A stretch of DNA of 64,000 nucleotides from Galerina marginata (lineage: Eukaryota > Basidiomycota > Agaricomycetes > Agaricales > Galerinaceae). The translations under genes were made by a program, and so were the position numbers. The notes beneath the pieces are model-generated. The model had not been told where the DNA came from. It did no database searches and was given only the letters and a program-made list of their open reading frames with translations. Below, piece by piece: positions 2,252-22,978 of this stretch. The stretch is taken from positions 2,728,001 through 2,792,000 of the forward strand of contig JAECYW010000007.1 of assembly GCA_023014335.1 (NCBI GenBank), read 5' to 3'. Numbering within the stretch: position 1 is the first letter of the stretch; each line of letters opens with the position of its first letter.

Positions 2252-3586
2252 CTACGGCGTGGAGCCTAGGAGATCGACCTCGAGCTTGCGACGAAGTGCC
2301 ATTGCAGAAAATGCGGGCGGTCGTGGAATAAGGACAGCAATCCGCAGCCTTTGGAGGGCAGGGAGTAGTGTAAATTGCTGTTTTACTACGTCCCATTGCC
2401 CCATTTCTTCGATGAACTTGTTATAAAACTGGTGTCGCCGATCACACCTGATGGCTCTATCACCACCGTCAGATACGTTGTCTAATTTTATCGTAAGCGA
2501 CAAGAGTTGCGGGAGTAGCCTGAGCGAGTCCAGCAACTCTAGGGAAGTGCCGCCACAGATCTTGATAGTGAAATCTTGGATTTGGCAGGCAGAACATGCG
2601 AGGAAGGACGAAACATCGGCGTGTACCCAATCAATACTCGAGGTTTCCAAGGCGAGTGAAGTCAAGGCAGGTGTGTTAAGGTATAGAAGAAAAGGAATAA
2701 GGCAAGTGGAGGGATATGTGGTAACCAATTTGAGATGTCGAAGAACTGGCAGCTTGAGAGGTTTGCGGTTCTTTGTGCGCGTTTTGTCCAAGGAAAACTT
2801 GCATAACCGAACAACACAGCGAACCAGGTTCGTTGACTTGGAGAGAAGATAAAAGAGCTGATATGCTGGTGTGTAAAGGCTGATGTCGATAGATGTAAGT
2901 TGACCGAAAGGAATTTGGAGTACGCCGGCCATGTGGCCGTAGTCGAGGAACCAACGATCGAAAAAGGGGTTGAAATGAGCGAACACTACGATTCTGAGGT
3001 CGGGAGATCGCGTCCATATCTTTGAAATACTAGGATTAATGGAAGACATGGTTGGCCCCATCTTCAGTGTGAGTTTTTGAAGCAGAGGCAGGGCAGCCGG
3101 GAGCACGCAGTCCAGCAACGAACCCTGAGGAAATTGTGGCATTCTGCAGTTGAAAATATACGTGCCAATCTCGAGATCATTTGCACGATGGAAATTCCGG
3201 CATAGTAACTCTATCATGCCACAAGTCTCGCGAGAAAGGCTATGGTCGCCCTTGGGGCGTACGGGATACACGTCCACCATTAGAGAAATCTTGAGTGGCG
3301 AGCTCCCTGAGCGTTGGAGGTGTAGATCCAGCAACTCTGGGCCAAGCGAGCGTTTTCCAAGTTCGTTGACGTGCAACTGTATCCTATTCCAGAGCTCCGG
3401 CGCGTTTATCGCTACCTTCCTCCAGCGGGAGCAAACCTGGCTTGATAAGATGTGGATTTGGTGTCCGAACCGCGTAAGCCTCGACTCGTAGTGAACGACG
3501 CATAGTTTGAAGATCGTCCTCCAGATATCGTCTGCTAGATGCGCGATAATCCAGTTTTTTGGCCTTGGATTGTAATTGGGATGCAT
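2252..3586 (-). CDS. F-box domain protein (agaricomycete type)
   Basis: A single-exon frame of 444 residues, read from the first ATG (3586-3584); the frame stays open upstream but only with non-ATG codons. Residues about 10-65 form an F-box: a DDIWRTIFKLC helix, then QVCSRWRKVAI and PELWNRI. The rest is leucine-rich, with repeated short motifs (LPLLQKLTL, LPVLRHLKL, PALTSLALE) like the irregular LRR-type solenoid of agaric F-box proteins. Family knowledge: the F-box binds Skp1 and the solenoid recruits a substrate to an SCF ubiquitin ligase; the substrate is unknown. It is related to the F-box gene at 8160-9599 and the pseudogene at 21473-22978. Its C-terminus ends soon after the last LRR-like strand and lacks the LRLL..R.GL.VELDP tail of those two, so it may be slightly truncated or diverged. 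Confidence 0.85.
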   Translation of the reverse strand: MHPNYNPRPKNWIIAHLADDIWRTIFKLCVVHYESRLTRFGHQIHILSSQVCSRWRKVAINAPELWNRIQLHVNELGKRSLGPELLDLHLQRSGSSPLKISLMVDVYPVRPKGDHSLSRETCGMIELLCRNFHRANDLEIGTYIFNCRMPQFPQGSLLDCVLPAALPLLQKLTLKMGPTMSSINPSISKIWTRSPDLRIVVFAHFNPFFDRWFLDYGHMAGVLQIPFGQLTSIDISLYTPAYQLFYLLSKSTNLVRCVVRLCKFSLDKTRTKNRKPLKLPVLRHLKLVTTYPSTCLIPFLLYLNTPALTSLALETSSIDWVHADVSSFLACSACQIQDFTIKICGGTSLELLDSLRLLPQLLSLTIKLDNVSDGGDRAIRCDRRHQFYNKFIEEMGQWDVVKQQFTLLPALQRLRIAVLIPRPPAFSAMALRRKLEVDLLGSTP

Positions 3587-3664
3587 GCTGAAGTGAGTGC
3601 GGTGTTCAGAAAGGAGAAAACATGATGGATGTTTCGGAAGTTCAGCCGTCCTGAAATCAGTCAC

Positions 3665-4005
3665 GAGGTTGCATGACGATAGGGTGAAGCTGGTCCTTCT
3701 TTCCCCTGTCTCTGATGACCGTTAGCCTAACACGTTTGAGCATGTTCATAGCCTGTAACCGCAGGATGAACTTGGGATGAGCCTTTCAGTCATGTCCAGC
3801 TCAAATCGTTTCACCAGTCAATGGCCCTACCAGAATATAACTGGTGCTGTCCTGCCAAGGTGCTGCAGATAGTTGTGGTCACTGCCGCGACGGTAGTAAG
3901 CAAGTAGTAAGCACAAGAATCTCGTCGTCGTCATCGTCGTCGGAACGATGCATGACGGAACGGTACAACTGCTTACATGCATTTGCCATGATCGGAATCG
4001 CCAAC
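3665..4005. other. Intergenic spacer before foldback element
   Basis: No gene is seen. It holds a short GTCGTC-type triplet run near 3925-3950. It ends at the 7-bp target duplication of the foldback element. Confidence 0.4.
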
Positions 4006-4012
4006 CAACTTC
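4006..4012. repeat. Left target-site duplication CAACTTC of the foldback element
   Basis: CAACTTC directly abuts the outer end of the left arm. The same 7 bases follow the right arm at 6753-6759. Extending the match one base either way fails, so the duplication reads as exactly 7 bp. Confidence 0.85.
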
Positions 4013-6752
4013 CACCTTAGGTTCCCACACCTTGACTGCCATCAGACGACAGGAAATGATGTCATCCTGTCATCAGATTGGTATCGAAAATGCCAGTTTC
4101 TCTTACACGTCGATATTCCGGTCGGTATGTATGCCCACCGCCTCTAAGTCCCAATGAGATAAGCCGAGATAAGATAGCATAGGTATGTGCAATGCTGACA
4201 CATGTCCCTGGGCACGCGCCGCGCCATCAACCATTGATGCCGACGTTCCGGGAGATCCCCGGACCCTTTGTGCTCGCTGTTGGGCACAGTGAGCACGCAT
4301 ATTTCACCATTCCCGCCCCGTTCTTTCCACTTTCTTTGCACACCCATCATTATATGTATTAATAAGGATTTATTGTCGCTTTTATTGAATATTATATGTG
4401 TATATAAAGGTGATAAGCAAGGTACTTCTCCTAGGTACTCTCTAGGTAGTTTCCTCTATATATATGTACTATCTGGGGCTGAAGTATGGCCTATAATTAT
4501 TTAGTAAACTAGTTTGAACCTACAGATGGGTCTAAGAGGGTACATGGATAGTACAGGAGAATATATAAGGCAACTAGGCTAGGGGGAGGAGGAGGACATG
4601 CCTCTCCTCGCTTTTTTGAAAGCCCAGTGCATACATTTATACTGTATAAATATATACTGTGCCTATTAGGATAAATGTGAAGAATTTTAGGGCAAAGGGA
4701 CGACCTTGGGGGGAATGGTAAGGGCATTAGTAGGGCAGGAGAAGGTGTGATGAAATATATACATCCCAGCCTTTGTAGGGCTCTCTTTACTCTCTAAATC
4801 CGTTTATTATACTCATTTAATGTCAAAATCCCAGTGTTTTAAGGCGCTCGCAGGGGAGATCAGCCTGTATATGTGTATGAGTGTGGGGGGAGATACCCAT
4901 TCTATTCAATATCCAGGGCACCTAGACCAAAAATTCCTTCGCGTTTGTATTTTCCCATTGTATATATAAGTAGCAACGATGTTACACAGAGAGCGCCGAA
5001 GGGTTAACATGAAGAAATGACGATGGGTATACCCCCCTCCCATGTACCAAAAATGGCAATGTTGCGCCACATAAATTGTGTATGTAGCTGCACAGCAATA
5101 TTTTATAAACCAACTAACTTATATATACGCATTTAGCGCGCTTAAATCGCCGGAATTCGAAGCCTAATTGAAGATATGGCTTACATATCGCAAAATGTAT
5201 GTATTTCGAGCTTTGTACAACGAATATTGATGCTAAAATTATTATAAAGACACGGGTAGAATACTACTTACGACAGGAGTACACTCCAAAAAACCGATTG
5301 AGATTTGAAGCATTCTATGAAAAGATATGCAGTAATATGTTCGGAGATTACGAACGTTGAGTAATGCCATTTATAGCACATAATTATGGCTTTTGTGTGA
5401 CGCGATCAATCTCCATGTTTCGGACACAAATCCTGCCATAACTTTCCATAGAATACTTCAAATCTCAATCGGTTTTTTGGAGTGTACTCCTGTCGTAAGT
5501 AGTAATCTACCCATGTCTTTATAATAATTTTAGCATCAATATTCGTCGTATAAAGTCCGAAATACATAGATTTTTCGATATATGAGCCACATCTCTAATT
5601 GAGCCTCGTATTACGGTGATATAAGTGTACAAAGTGAATGGATTTAAGCCAGTAGGTTTGTACAATATTTCTGAGCTGCTAAATACGGAATTTACGTGGC
5701 GCACTACTGCCATTTTTAGTACATGGGAGGGGGGTACACCCATCGTCATTTCTCCATGTTAATCCTTCGGCGCTCTCAATTTAGCATCGTCCCCACTTAG
5801 ATGTACATTGGGAAGATACAATCGCGAAGGAATCTTTTGTCTAGGTGCCCTGGATATTGAATAGAATGAGTATCTCCCCCTAGACTCATACACACATACA
5901 GGCTGATCTCCCCTGTAAGCGCCTTGGAATACTAGGCTTTTGACATTAACTGAGTATACTAAACAGATTTATAGAGCACAGATAGCCCCACAAAGGCTGG
6001 GATGTATATATTTCATCACACCTTCCCCTACCCTACTAATGCCCTTACCATTCTCCTCAAGGTTGTTCCCTTGCCCTAAAATTCATTATATTTACCCAAT
6101 ATGCACAGTATATATTTCTAAAGTATAAATGTATGCACTGGGCTTTCAAAAAAGCGAAGAGAGGCATGTCCTCCTCCTCCCCCTAGCCTAGTTGCCTTAT
6201 ATATTCTCCTATACTATCCATGTACCCTCTTAGACCCATCTGTAGGTTTAAACTAGTTTACTAAATAATTATAGGCCATACTTTAGCCCCAGATAGTACA
6301 TATATATAGAGGAAACCACCTAAAGAGTACCTAGGAGAAGTACCTTGCTTATCACCTTTATATACGCATGTAATATTCAATAAAAGCGACAATAAATCCT
6401 TATTAATACATATAATGATGGGTGTGCAAAGAAAGTGGGGGAAACGGGGCGGGAATGGTGAAATATGCGTGCTCACTGTGCCCAACAGCGAGCACAAAGG
6501 GTCCGGGGATCTCCCGGAACGTCGGCATCAATGGTTGATGGCGCGGCGCGTGCCCAGGGACATGTGTCAGCATTGCACATACCTATGCTATCTTATCTCG
6601 GCTTATCTCATTGGGACTTAGAGGCGGTGGGCATACATACCGACCGGAATATCGACGTGTGAGAGAAACTGACATTTTCGATACCAATCTGATGACAGGA
6701 TGACATCATTTCCTGTCGTCTGATGGCAGTCAAAGTGTGGGAACCTAAGGTG
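4013..6752. mobile_element. Foldback DNA transposon with arms of about 1.3 kb, non-autonomous
   Basis: A 2.74-kb inverted repeat. The left end begins CACCTTAGGTTCCCACAC and the right end is its reverse complement. The arms (about 4013-5325 and 5441-6752) match throughout with scattered substitutions and small indels; the loop is about 115 bp. The same short frames therefore appear on opposite strands (for example 4103-4300 minus and 6465-6662 plus) and are not genes. No transposase-like frame is present. A 7-bp direct repeat flanks it. Long terminal inverted repeats recall foldback or Mutator-like elements, but 7 bp is shorter than the usual 8-11 bp MULE duplication, so the superfamily is left open. 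A transcript crossing it would fold into a hairpin of more than 1 kb. Confidence 0.9.
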
Positions 6753-6759
6753 CAACTTC
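6753..6759. repeat. Right target-site duplication CAACTTC of the foldback element
   Basis: Second copy of the 7-bp direct repeat, immediately after the right arm. It pairs with 4006-4012. Confidence 0.85.
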
Positions 6760-6837
6760 AAGAGCAAGAAAGAGGTTATGACTCACATGACCGGACCGGT
6801 CGAAGTAACCGGACCCCCATCGCGTCCAACCACCACT

Positions 6838-7068
6838 CACTGGACGCAATAGTCACTTTTCTGGAGACAAAAAGGTGATTCTCAACCAATAAAAAATTAT
6901 GATTGTTATAACTCCATAAAAGTATTACCGTATGGAGTACCGAAAAAATATATGGAGTACCGTCGGTACTCCATAAGGTAATGGTTTTTTCAGTTTGAAA
7001 CACTCATAATTTTTGAATAGTTGAGAATCACATTTTCCGAGTTCAAAAAATAGCTTTTGCGCCCAGTG
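6838..7068. mobile_element. CACTA-like MITE with 3-bp ACT duplication
   Basis: A 231-bp near-palindrome. The left end reads CACTGGACGCAA and the right end is the reverse complement of CACTGGGCGCAA. Matching inner blocks follow (GTGATTCTCAAC, then an AT-rich block, then GGAGTACC next to the centre). The trinucleotide ACT flanks both ends (6835-6837 and 7069-7071). CACT[A/G] termini with 3-bp duplications are the signature of the CACTA (CMC) superfamily; the element is too short to encode a transposase. It ends 24 bp upstream of the start codon at 7093, so it probably lies in that gene's promoter or 5' UTR. Confidence 0.75.
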
Positions 7069-7092
7069 ACTGTTGGCTGTTGATAACCTCGA

Positions 7093-7851
7093 ATGACCGA
7101 CTTATTTGACCTTTGTCATTCTCGCTGGGCCTTGGCCTCCCTGGTCGTAGCCAATGTCTCCCAGGACACCCTTGATACCGTCAAAACGAGGTATAATCGT
7201 GGCCGTATATCACCCACAAACATTCACCTCGAGACAGTCCAAGCGCCAGAGCTCCTTTCACAAGAACCAGAAAGGGCAAAGAACTACGTTCGCGAGCATT
7301 TTTCCCATCCCGACTCTCCCTTCATCCCGTGTTTTTACACCGTGATCGATGAGCGTACCGCCCAGGATGGTTCGATTCTCTATGTTCAACAAGACTGGTC
7401 TGGAGAACCCGACAACTCCGTCCGCACTATGCCTGAACACGCCCACTTCCTCACCACTGGGTTTCTTATGGGCGACGACGACTGGGAGCGAGTCCGAGAA
7501 GAAGACCACAACGACAATAACATGCCCGACCTCTACAACCCGAGTCCCCCAGACCCCGCAGCACCGATGATCACGGCCATCGTGCGTATCCCTGCTTCGC
7601 TCGCCAACCTCTCCGGTCAAGATAACGACGATGTCAGATCGTACGATCTAGAGCCTCAGGCGGCAGAACAGCTGGGGCTGACTCCAGGAGATAGGGCGAG
7701 AACGGTGAAACAAGTTCGCAGGGATGACGGCACATTTGGAGACAACCTCTACCTGGAAGTTCGCCAGCGCGATATCGTTTCTCCATCGGATGACTTAAGG
7801 GTTTGGGGCACGGCGGACTTTTTCAGGTGGGGAGTGGATTCAGCCTTGTAA
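7093..7851 (+). CDS. Hypothetical protein, 252 aa, weak DUF6924-like resemblance
   Basis: Single-exon frame opening at an ATG, rich in acidic residues, with no signal peptide or membrane segment. The middle (residues about 80-140) has a VIDERT strand, an ILYVQQ strand, then VRTMPEHA and a GDDDWERV helix. This order recalls the DUF6924 pattern (an x-D-R-T strand, a V-L-V-V strand, an R-V-[IV]-P strand, then an acidic helix). I recognise this only loosely and assign no function. A CACTA-like MITE ends 24 bp upstream and the foldback element lies 340 bp upstream, so its promoter may have been rearranged. The long intact frame supports a real gene; a cryptic 3' intron cannot be excluded. Confidence 0.65.
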   Translation: MTDLFDLCHSRWALASLVVANVSQDTLDTVKTRYNRGRISPTNIHLETVQAPELLSQEPERAKNYVREHFSHPDSPFIPCFYTVIDERTAQDGSILYVQQDWSGEPDNSVRTMPEHAHFLTTGFLMGDDDWERVREEDHNDNNMPDLYNPSPPDPAAPMITAIVRIPASLANLSGQDNDDVRSYDLEPQAAEQLGLTPGDRARTVKQVRRDDGTFGDNLYLEVRQRDIVSPSDDLRVWGTADFFRWGVDSAL

Positions 7852-8159: not shown

Positions 8160-9599
8160 TTAACCGCGAGGTCGGCGCCGCGGACGAAATACTTCGATTT
8201 CTATGGTGGGTACTGGATCTAATTCCACATCAAGTCCATCTCTTTTCAAGATTAATAGACGAAGGATTTCATTCGGCGCCCATTTGAAGAGAGATTCCTC
8301 GTCGACGGAGTAGTCCTCTGGCAAATTTGTGACTTTTGTTCTTATCCATCGATCTTCGACCATGTTAGCGAACAGCATTGTATCAGCGCCATAGCCAAGG
8401 ATTTCATAGTCTATTTCGATTTGCTGAAGATGAGGGAGAACAGAAAATTCGCGCTTTGATCGATCCCATTTTCCTAATTCTTCAATGAGGTAGTAGTGAA
8501 AATCGTAGCCGGTCCCTGTGTCCTTCAAGTTGATGTCGCTTTTGTATACTGTCAAGGATGTGAGGTCTGGGAAAAGGTAGAAGCAGTCGAGCTTTTCTTT
8601 CTCATTGGTATCGAGGACGGTGATGCCGAAATGTTTGAGGGAACAGCGAGATTTTGCGATGAAGGAAGTAAAGACTCCAGGTTGCCAGTCTCCTCCTGAG
8701 TCTTGCATGTCCAGCACAGTCAAAGCTGGAGTTTCGAGGTGGCGGATGAAGTTTATGGTGTTCCATTTAGCGGTCAGGCGGAAACACCGAAGGTTTGGAA
8801 GGAAAATCTCGTGAGTGATGAGGCCGTGGGCCAAATCACCGATAGTGCACTCAACGATGTTTTTGAATTTAGAAAAGAGCAAGTGGAGGTCATTTACTCC
8901 GACGCGAGCCAGGATATGGAGAGCTGTCAATTGGGCCAGTGGAATCTGGAGAGTATTAACGACGTGGAGCCGGTCGAAAGTGATTGAACGGTGAAAAACC
9001 ACTTTCGTTAATTTCGGAGATAGGGTCCACAGCTTCGAAATGCACGCATCGGGTTTTGACTTTTTCGACGCCAGTAGTACAAGGGTTTGAAGGGATGGAA
9101 GGCCTTCCGACAGGATCTCGTCAAGCCGTTGGGGACCCCAGCGAAACGTGATTATATCCTGCAGAAGGTTAATTTCGACTGCGATATAGTCCGCGCGATA
9201 GAAATTGTGCAGTAAGAGATCGACGACGCCCTCGGCGGCGTCCGAAAGAATTGGAGAGGAAGTGTCCAGGGTAATCTTGAGTGGGAGGGTTCCAGCACGC
9301 TCGAGGAACAACTCGAGAATTTTACGGGTTAGCGATGAATTTCCGACAAAGTCGATGCAGACGTGCACCTTATTCCAGAGTTCTGGGGCGTTTGTTGCGA
9401 TCGTTCTCCAGACTGAGCAAACCCGACACAAGAAGACAGGGGAACGATCAGCAATTGACGGCAGGTGCCAGTGATACCTTAGGTCAGGATTCATGTCTCG
9501 AGAGGCGCACAACTTGAAAATTTCCCGCCAGACGTCCGCCGGCACTGTTGAAAGGAGAGCCTGAGAAGGCGCAAGTACTTCAGGTTTATCAGGGGACAT
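8160..9599 (-). CDS. F-box domain protein with LRR-like region
   Basis: Single-exon frame of 479 residues starting at an ATG (9599-9597). The F-box spans residues about 15-75: PADVWREIFKLC, then RVCSVWRTIATNAPELWNKV. Leucine-rich strands follow, such as LPSLQTLVLL, LPNLRCFRLT, TPALTVLDMQ and LPHLQQIEID. The C-terminus has the segment EILRLLILKRDGLDVELDP, also found in the frameshifted paralogue at 21473-22978. Predicted role, from the family: substrate adaptor of a Skp1-Cullin-F-box ligase, cytosolic or nuclear. It is the most complete of the three F-box loci in the window and serves as the reference for judging the other two. Confidence 0.88.
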   Translation of the reverse strand: MSPDKPEVLAPSQALLSTVPADVWREIFKLCASRDMNPDLRYHWHLPSIADRSPVFLCRVCSVWRTIATNAPELWNKVHVCIDFVGNSSLTRKILELFLERAGTLPLKITLDTSSPILSDAAEGVVDLLLHNFYRADYIAVEINLLQDIITFRWGPQRLDEILSEGLPSLQTLVLLASKKSKPDACISKLWTLSPKLTKVVFHRSITFDRLHVVNTLQIPLAQLTALHILARVGVNDLHLLFSKFKNIVECTIGDLAHGLITHEIFLPNLRCFRLTAKWNTINFIRHLETPALTVLDMQDSGGDWQPGVFTSFIAKSRCSLKHFGITVLDTNEKEKLDCFYLFPDLTSLTVYKSDINLKDTGTGYDFHYYLIEELGKWDRSKREFSVLPHLQQIEIDYEILGYGADTMLFANMVEDRWIRTKVTNLPEDYSVDEESLFKWAPNEILRLLILKRDGLDVELDPVPTIEIEVFRPRRRPRG

Positions 9600-20934: not shown

Positions 20935-21472
20935 TTGCGTCGTCATCTGAATAGTAGGCGGCTGCCATAGAAAATCAAGCATTGTGTAAAGCACTGACTG
21001 TATCATGCATGTACCGAAATATCCTAGTAGTCCCTGTAACCTTGGAATCGTGAGTTTGGTTTGTATGATAAATGATACTTGAGAACGCCATACCTACTAC
21101 TCCAGGTTCGTTCAGCTGCGAAGGAAATGATGAAACATCATCACTTGGGAGCAACTTCGGGAGCAAGTCGGGAGCAAGCTTTATGAAATGGAGCGTAAGT
21201 ATTCATTTTGGCGAGGATAGATAGAGTAGTAGCATCATAGAATATCCGTGATTCTGTGGATTTCGATGATTGACACCAATATGTGAAAAAGCAGTGGAGG
21301 AGCATCAGCCTATATCACCAGCCGGTCCGAGTCGGGTACGATCGGTCGATCACATGGTTAGCCAATAACCGCGCGATTTGAAATTGAGATAATTAGTGCC
21401 GTCTTGCGACAAAAGAACTACAAAAGCTCGGACTCTGATGGTTCCTTGCTTTCCCCCCTTGCTTCACTCCAA
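20935..21472. other. Intergenic, no gene seen
   Basis: Spacer between the kinase-like gene and the F-box pseudogene. No features found apart from short frames. Confidence 0.35.
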
Positions 21473-22978
21473 ATGGCATCGCCGTGCTCGCCCCAGAATC
21501 CCGCTGTCAACCATGTACCATACGACATTTGGAGAGCCGTGTTCGGTGTATACATCTCCGACTCAGCAAAGTCCTCAATAAAGTTCGATCCAAAGAGAGG
21601 CCCTCTTTTACTGAGTCAGATTTGTTCGGTTTGGAGGAGAATAGCGGTCGAGTCACCTGAGTTATGGTGCAATATTGAAGTGACCGTTGACGAAGATTGT
21701 CATGGGTTCCCAGATAAGAAGCTCCTCGAGCTAGCCCTAGAACGTGCCAGAAGATCGCCGCTTAGGCTTGCGCTATGTGGCGGGAAGACGGCGCCTCCAG
21801 CATCAAAAACTCGCCCCGAGACTGTGGATATGGTGGATATTTTATTGACCAACGTTTCTCGTGCAGTTCATCTTGAAGTCGACCTTCGGATCATTCACTC
21901 TACCCTCCTTGACCGTCCTCGTGGCCCACAACGATTTCACAAATTTATTGGCCCAGGTATGCCTTGGTTGAAGCGATTGAAGATCTCAGGACGGCCTTCC
22001 TCATTCCCGCCGTATTTTTATGAAGACGAGCAAGGACCACCCATCAACCCCATCATAGCAAAGCTCTGGACACCAGCCCCTAAGCTATGGAGGCTGGATT
22101 TATGTGGCTACATCCACTTTCAGAATTTATCGATAATGGAGTCGCTTGGGCCCTCTCTCGGTCCCCTCAGCCTTTTAAATATGGCAAGTCCGATATCTTC
22201 AAAAGACTTTCTTTCTATTCTTTCTGCAACCAAACAGCTTGCACAATGCACCGTCCAACAACTTATCGGGGCGCTCCCTGTCTACGACATATCGCAACAT
22301 CCGATCCAGCTCCAATTTCTTTCCCATCTCGACATAAAAGGATCAGGCGAGGATTCAGGAGGCGACGAACGAAGCCCACCGCTAACCGAAGTCGTCAAGT
22401 ATATTCGAGCACCATCGTTGACCTTCGCTTCATCTGCGACGTGACCGAGGGTGGTCCCAATCATCGTTCTCCGCATTTCTCCAGAACTCGTCCTGCGCTA
22501 TTCGTCATCTGACCCTCGATATCGAAGATTCAGACGAACCCGACAAGTTGGAATGCCTCGAGCTGCTTCCTTCTCTGATGACACTCAACATGAGCTCGGG
22601 AAATCGGTATACTAGGGAAAGCGACAGCCCAGATTTCCTCACTGAAACTTTTACGAATGCTCTAAAAGAGCGAGACTTTTCACGAAGAGGTGCTACCGTT
22701 TAGGATCTGTCCCTTTTTAGAGCACTTCGAGTTCGACTACGACGCTCTAGGACGACCATGCTTCGATGAGAACAGTGTTTGCGAAGATGATCGAAGAGCG
22801 GTTGCTACAGTCGACCCATTTTCGATCAGTGTGTATTCGGGAAGTGAAGGACGGCCAGTCACGCTACGAAAATTATGGATATGTATCGTTTGAGATTCTT
22901 AGGCTCCTTGCGCTTAGGAGATATGGGTTGAAGGTAGAGTTGGATCCAGAACCATGTTGGGCTGTTCTCCTCGAGTAA
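21473..22978 (+). pseudogene. F-box protein pseudogene with three frameshifts
   Basis: The first ATG is at 21473; the upstream open frame has no ATG. The first frame (to 22444) encodes an F-box (YDIWRAVFGVY, then QICSVWRRIAVESPELWCNI) and LRR-like strands up to PSLTFASSAT. The family text then continues in other frames. From about 22465: FSAFLQNSSCAIRHLTLDIED to LKERDFSRRG. From about 22690: LPFRICPFLEHFEFDYDAL. From about 22765: TVFAKMIEERL to EILRLLALRRYGLKVELDP, ending at 22978. Each block aligns in order with the intact paralogue at 8160-9599 (for example SFIAKSRCSLKHFGITVLD, HLQQIEIDYEIL and EILRLLILKRDGLDVELDP), so three indels, not introns, separate them. Probably recently inactivated. 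Confidence 0.85.

Follow-up and report, generated by a model that had tools for sequence, protein, structure and literature searches.

The arms of the Drosophila Foldback (FB) elements are built of short tandem repeats. Galileo, a Drosophila transposon of the P superfamily, has long arms, non-coding two-arm copies and, in most copies, 7-bp target duplications; arm recombination and chimeric copies, some of them combining the ends of one subfamily with the centre of another, are also described (PMC3573991). Tm1 of root-knot nematodes is reported as a Mutator/Foldback element (PMC3169594). Foldbacks are already known, then, from the P class, with Galileo, and from the Mutator class, with Tm1. 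Among the matches listed from the open-access literature, none assigned a foldback to the KDZ (Kyakuja-Dileera-Zisupton) transposons. Two Laccaria Kyakuja families are described with 7-bp duplications, CA..TG ends and no terminal inverted repeats, and 8-bp duplications are given for Zisupton and for a Dileera-assigned family of rusts (PMC12730594). For Cryptococcus KDZ1-3, terminal repeats of 241, 139 and 169 bp are reported, with duplications of 8 bp for KDZ1 and 4-8 bp for KDZ2-3 (PMC12810828). KDZ transposons are large and numerous in the genome studied here, and little is known of the end sequences that their transposases need.

The foldback described below resembles each of these systems in part. 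It is nearly all inverted repeat, as are the FB elements, but unlike them has just two weak tandem rows (period 11, about two copies each). With Galileo it has in common long arms, non-coding two-arm copies, 7-bp duplications, chimeras and arm recombination; the transposase superfamily is a different one, its full-length relative C34 having a KDZ domain. As with Tm1, a foldback is given to a named transposase superfamily, which for Tm1 is the Mutator class. It is like the fungal KDZ elements in its 7-8-bp duplications, its CA..TG ends and its tips, which are homologous to those of an element encoding PF18758; unlike them, it is a foldback without a transposase, and its arms measure 1.3 kb. It also has long terminal inverted repeats, unlike the Laccaria Kyakuja families, which are said to be without them (PMC12730594).

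Structure and ends of the foldback

The window, that is, the whole 64,000-nucleotide stretch of Galerina marginata DNA that was analysed, contains a foldback of 2,740 bp at positions 4013-6752 (Table 1). Its ends could be read directly to the base: the left end, from 4013, is CACCTTAGG, and the right end, with its last base at 6752, is CCTAAGGTG. Since identical 7-mer pairs were obtained in just 13 of 200,000 random draws from the window, the CAACTTC pair found at these independently fixed ends is not due to chance. In an inverted-repeat search, the outer 664 nt of the arms were 97% complementary and the inner 661 nt 85%. The original prediction of a foldback with ~1.3-kb arms and an exact 7-bp duplication was confirmed by direct reading and the repeat search, as was its claim that CAACTTC, at 4006-4012 and 6753-6759, fixes both ends to the base. 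The predicted absence of coding capacity held as well: the longest frame between stops within the element is 103 aa, which leaves it without a KDZ transposase gene of its own. As the prediction further proposed, transcription through the element might yield a long hairpin RNA, a putative source of small-RNA silencing. An Rfam scan of 3900-7100 gave 0 matches.

Table 1. Features of the foldback in the window
Feature	Position	Strand	Basis
Left target-site duplication, CAACTTC	4006..4012	.	Read directly; exact repeat of 6753-6759
Left foldback arm	4013..5329	+	Inverted-repeat pairs, outer and inner
Left KDZ-like tip	4013..4176	+	Aligned to C34 terminal inverted repeat
Left core arm common to C41:472.4-475.0 kb and C13:249.1-264.6 kb	4218..5329	+	85-88%
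Subterminal box	4268..4343	+	C4-tipped-family profile; left arm E=3.5e-4, right arm E=2.2e-5
Dyad GTGCTCGCTGT-TGGGC-ACAGTGAGCAC in box, left arm	4270..4296	+	Pairing, covariation and folding analysis
Loop, 107 bp	5330..5436	.	Between inner arms (repeat search)
Right foldback arm	5437..6752	-	Inverted-repeat pairs, outer and inner
Right core arm common to C41:472.4-475.0 kb and C13:249.1-264.6 kb	5437..6547	-	
Dyad, right arm copy	6469..6495	-	Pairing analysis
Right KDZ-like tip, mirror of left	6589..6752	-	Outer 118 bp matched directly by C34 repeat, E=2.8e-16
Right target-site duplication, CAACTTC	6753..6759	.	Read directly

Aligned arm against arm, over a stretch that takes in part of the loop, the element is identical at 1,225 of 1,372 columns. 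With roughly one site in nine unlike between the arms, a hairpin artefact of assembly is unlikely.

The genome searched comprised 69.3 Mb in 43 contigs. A sister foldback on C43 (2637275 to 2645109) carries the window's tips, the right one reduced to a few tens of bases, and is flanked by TTGGAATC, an 8-bp duplication. Its arm is interrupted by a ~3-kb poly-A-ended element, present there as two copies in opposite orientation (L014 793-3963 and L023 262-3342). The window's loop has counterparts in C43 (93%) and in C13 and C41:473.6 kb (75% each). Other copies had been expected to share the window's ends; this holds for C43 but not for C41 (472.4-475.0 kb) and C13 (249.1-264.6 kb), where the core arms lie within other ends. 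A genome search with the joined flanks, representing an empty site, found no unoccupied paralogue; it matched only both flanks and two fragments of a neighbouring repeat.

The low copy number, with core arms at four loci in the genome, would in itself also suit a palindrome formed by inverted duplication of host DNA. We regard this origin as extremely improbable and reject it in view of the exact duplication at the ends and of the second locus, C43, where the same ends, arms and loop are found with a duplication of their own.

Tips homologous to those of a KDZ transposon

A genome search with the outer 300 bp of the foldback returned both window ends, the C43 copy, the two loci with related arms (C41, C13) and each end of a 10,286-bp (~10.3 kb) element at C34:1036795-1047080. 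The C34 element has terminal repeats of ~570 bp that are 98.6% identical. Its ends are CACCTTAGG, as in the window, and TCGAGGA is present on both sides as an exact 7-bp duplication. The main frame of C34 carries the KDZ transposase domain PF18758 (E=2.2e-58), and a frame adjoining it has a KDZ match under the cut-off (E=2.3e-4); the 10 frames scanned gave no Pfam match besides the KDZ domain. Further long frames lie on the same strand beyond the transposase (L009 1411-4790), four of which were scanned with no Pfam match. In the genome as a whole, the KDZ domain gave 135 exon-level matches, 128 of them above the Pfam cut-off, an abundance that would suit a mushroom-type basidiomycete.

The window tip aligned to the C34 terminal repeat over ~165 bp with a local score of 137, compared to 34 for the best of 200 shuffles, and in the genome search the left tip matched C34 over 118 bp at 76% identity (E=7.7e-17). 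Just the outer ~165 bp of the ~570-bp C34 repeat are common to the window, with 76-79% identity in the first ~115 bp, so the element supplying the transposase would not have to be C34 itself. A search with the tip pattern gave 30 matches at up to two mismatches. As the backwards control gave more (65), only the six exact matches are informative, and all of these lie at the known window, C34 and C43 elements. One lone 16-bp tip match, with one mismatch, lies outside the known elements at C34:2677990-2678005.

The homology of the tips to those of a PF18758-encoding element of the same genome settles the class as KDZ, and, judged from ends, tips and duplications, the window element fits this class. 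The ends CACC..GGTG, which have the 5'-CA..TG-3' form of KDZ elements, were found in the window, C43 and C34 elements, in a further KDZ element, C4, and in three foldbacks with C4 tips. Long inverted repeats are present in the elements with the window's tips, and the duplications are 7 bp in two of these three (window and C34) and 8 bp in one (C43), so the staggered cut is not of one fixed length; the duplication of C4 is also 8 bp. The original prediction had held that the element does not fit the usual classes neatly. This was not supported, since duplications of 7-8 bp are typical of KDZ and the KDZ-encoding C34 element has homologous tips and a 7-bp duplication.

Collectively, these data favor the window element being a non-autonomous foldback that would be recognized and moved, by cut-and-paste, by a KDZ transposase supplied in trans, a reading to which we give a probability of about 0.83. 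We also considered another superfamily that combines 7-bp duplications with long-armed foldbacks, either P/Galileo-like or hAT7-like. Galileo is long-armed and most of its copies have 7-bp duplications (PMC3573991), and rust-fungus hAT families with 7-bp duplications are described (PMC12730594). However, both the tip homology and the ends point to the KDZ-transposase-encoding C34 element, in whose 10 scanned frames the KDZ domain is the only Pfam match, and such an origin is very unlikely.

A second KDZ transposon and its foldbacks

The KDZ protein of this genome that is closest to that of C34 is encoded on C4 (46% over 123 aa). This element spans 1978972-1987742, has repeats of ~491 bp (99%) and ends in CACCTCGTCATCAC (CACC..GGTG), with 8-bp duplications GGGTGCCT. 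A protein search with the frame before its KDZ domain gave 4 matches, one a hypothetical protein and the rest unnamed. Through its outer ~115 bp, the C4 repeat also matched three elements of 2.45 kb at each of their ends; two are on C23 and C5 (83-85%) and one is on C1 (75%). Each is a foldback, with arms of ~1.1 kb and a loop of 230-239 bp, and the C4 tip is common to them in the outer ~115-160 bp alone. Two are flanked by exact 8-bp duplications (AGGTCGTG and CTTCTTAC); at C23, 6 of 8 bases match, both misses being C/T. The C23 and C5 foldbacks are 97.8% identical overall, and C23, the one of the three that was scanned for frames, has a longest frame of 135 aa.

The arms of these foldbacks gave no BLAST match to the window arms at E<=1e-4, and the window tip scored 26 against the C4 repeat, compared to up to 37 for shuffles, so that no similarity is seen. 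To judge from these alignments, the foldback design recurs: a second KDZ element, C4, has foldbacks sharing just its outer tip. Two sets of foldback satellites sharing the outer ~115-165 bp with KDZ elements would mark the ends that the transposases need, and such satellites would give small natural substrates for testing the enzymes.

Core arms under other tips

In the C41 and C13 relatives, the core arms are like those of the window from 4218 inward, and the tips are TATGGCAACAGGG. By inspection, their duplications are AATTTA and AATAAA, respectively, 6 bp each, and CACC..GGTG ends are not present. No full-size element with these tips was found in the genome. Compared with the C34 and C4 repeats, the C41/C13 tips gave scores of 22 and 20, no better than shuffles; bases 113-210 of the window arm scored 20 against them, with shuffles reaching 26. 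Between the arms of the C13 foldback (L011/L012) lie a Copia-like frame of 1080 aa and a Gypsy-like integrase frame, so named by the look of the sequence only.

The same core arms under TATGGCAACAGGG tips, with 6-bp duplications AATTTA and AATAAA, could also mean that the KDZ-like tips were gained by recombination with a KDZ element while something else moved the foldback. This is unlikely, because the duplications sit exactly at the CACCTTAGG tips in both foldback copies that have them, window and C43, so that these tips define the cut ends. Duplications are at the tips in two of the three C4-tipped foldbacks as well (the third matching at 6 of 8 bases).

A subterminal box with a dyad

In local alignment, the arms of the window family and those of the C4-tipped family scored 71, whereas shuffles in 4-base blocks did not exceed 54. 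Profiles built from the arms of either family found the other family at a single place of ~80 bp, on the same strand. Measured from the tip, this box is at ~255-330 bp in the window copy and in the C4-tipped copies; in the C41 copy, which has a shorter tip, it is at ~175-255 bp. Box profile E-values ranged from 7.7e-6 to 0.007, the C4-family profile matching 6 of 7 window-family arms and the window-family profile 3 of 6 C4-family arms. A background of 61 kb of the window, six KDZ-gene loci and the C34 and C4 elements gave no match except the expected C4 tips, and the box itself was not found in the C34 or C4 KDZ element. Core arms under other tips, together with a box common to both KDZ-tipped families, suggest that cores persist while tips change. 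Such exchanges of tips on a common core would illustrate how a transposon's parasite can move on to another transposon.

The box contains a dyad that is present in all 13 arms, with 11 of 11 pairs (G-T allowed) in the 7 window-family arms and 9-10 of 11 in the 6 C4-family arms. Covariation was analysed with 500 shuffles on 7 of the 13 arms, which gave 6 distinct rows that are related to one another. Pairing was seen in 92.4% of cells and the covariation score was 0.309, a result reached by none of the 500 shuffles; slid registers gave at most 0.109. Three pairs had changed on both sides, a number reached by 73 of 500 shuffles, and there were five further pair types, reached by 453 of 500. Two of the eleven positions were unpaired in two or three C4-family rows. 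Because the rows are related, the paired changes represent few events, one of which separates C23 and C5. The folding energy of the dyad as DNA was -8.0 to -11.1 kcal/mol (z -2.8 to -4.4, four arms). Near-palindromes with 9 of 11 strict pairs and a 5-6-base loop occurred at 23 places in the 61-kb background. The C34 terminal repeats contained no hairpin at 8 of 11 pairs, and the C4 repeats had seven overlapping weaker hairpins of unrelated sequence, the best with 9 of 11.

Conservation of a dyad through paired change may point to the binding site of a dimer or to a hairpin. Templated correction within the palindrome could be another source of the paired changes. Taken together with the changing tips, the box raises the possibility, which we advance tentatively and consider rather doubtful, that an old non-coding foldback lineage lives off several KDZ transposases, swapping tips and keeping the box with its covarying dyad, with arm-to-arm conversion copying each new tip to both arms. 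If this were true, the box would act in cis for the foldbacks themselves, for instance as a site where a dimer binds or as a DNA hairpin that extrudes.

Arm history and a proposed mechanism

Differences in the window arms were counted at sites also present in the left arm of C43. Between the two window arms there were 15 differences in 590 outer sites and 95 in 654 inner sites. Compared to C43, the left window arm had 42 differences in the 590 outer sites and 50 in the 654 inner sites, and the right arm 117 in the 654 inner sites. From these counts it follows that the outer half has been copied from arm to arm since the window and C43 split, and that the arms themselves are older than the split. 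The pattern of alike outer and diverged inner arms is clear in five of the six foldbacks having both arms. Between the C13 arms there are 0 differences in 780 outer sites and 22 in 292 inner sites. Read in steps of 100 columns, arm identity in C23 and C5 is 91-100% for the outer 500 columns and 80-90% deeper inside; in C1 it is 98-100% for the outer 700 columns and 83-91% beyond them. In C41 the pattern is weak, with 92-93% at the extreme tip, 99-100% over 200-400 and 87-95% inside. One finding runs counter to a simple history: set against C23, C1 diverges most in its outer 200 bp (71-76%), as though its tip had drifted or been renewed.

A cut-and-paste element functions through its tips, and outer identity might reflect selection on transposase-binding tips. 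However, the arms differ from each other nearly six times less outside, whereas outer and inner parts are about equally far from the sister copy (42/590 and 50/654). Moreover, the 0 of 780 differences between the C13 arms cover sequence outside the tip, which is itself 46-50 sites away from the C41 arms. We consider selection in place of conversion improbable and reject it for the flat distance to the sister copy. Outer arms that are alike, at a flat distance to a sister copy, are, as read from these counts, the mark of gene conversion. The arm pattern would be a clean natural record of conversion favoring transposon ends.

We propose that a KDZ transposase made elsewhere would bind the outer ~115-165 bp of the foldback, excise it and insert it with a 7-8-bp staggered cut. 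Gene conversion, acting most strongly towards the ends, would keep the arms alike; it plausibly takes place as breaks at the element's ends are repaired. After cutting, repair started at an end may take the opposite arm as template, leaving identity highest outside, and by this route one newly gained tip could spread to the opposite end. The dyad, which both families keep and which in the window copy lies ~255-280 bp inside the end, would probably serve as a protein-binding or hairpin site.

Sequences beside the foldback

A small palindromic repeat with 74-nt arms (80%) lies at 6837-7068 of the window, ~80 bp to the right of the foldback. At least 19 other near full-length copies are present in the genome (79-96%), one of them ~0.5 kb to the left of the C43 foldback. 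The window also contains three similar-looking long frames (2252-3664, 8160-9599 and 21404-22444), two of which flank the foldback on either side. In Pfam scans, frame 8160-9599 gave no match and frame 2252-3664 an F-box-like match below threshold (E=0.0063).
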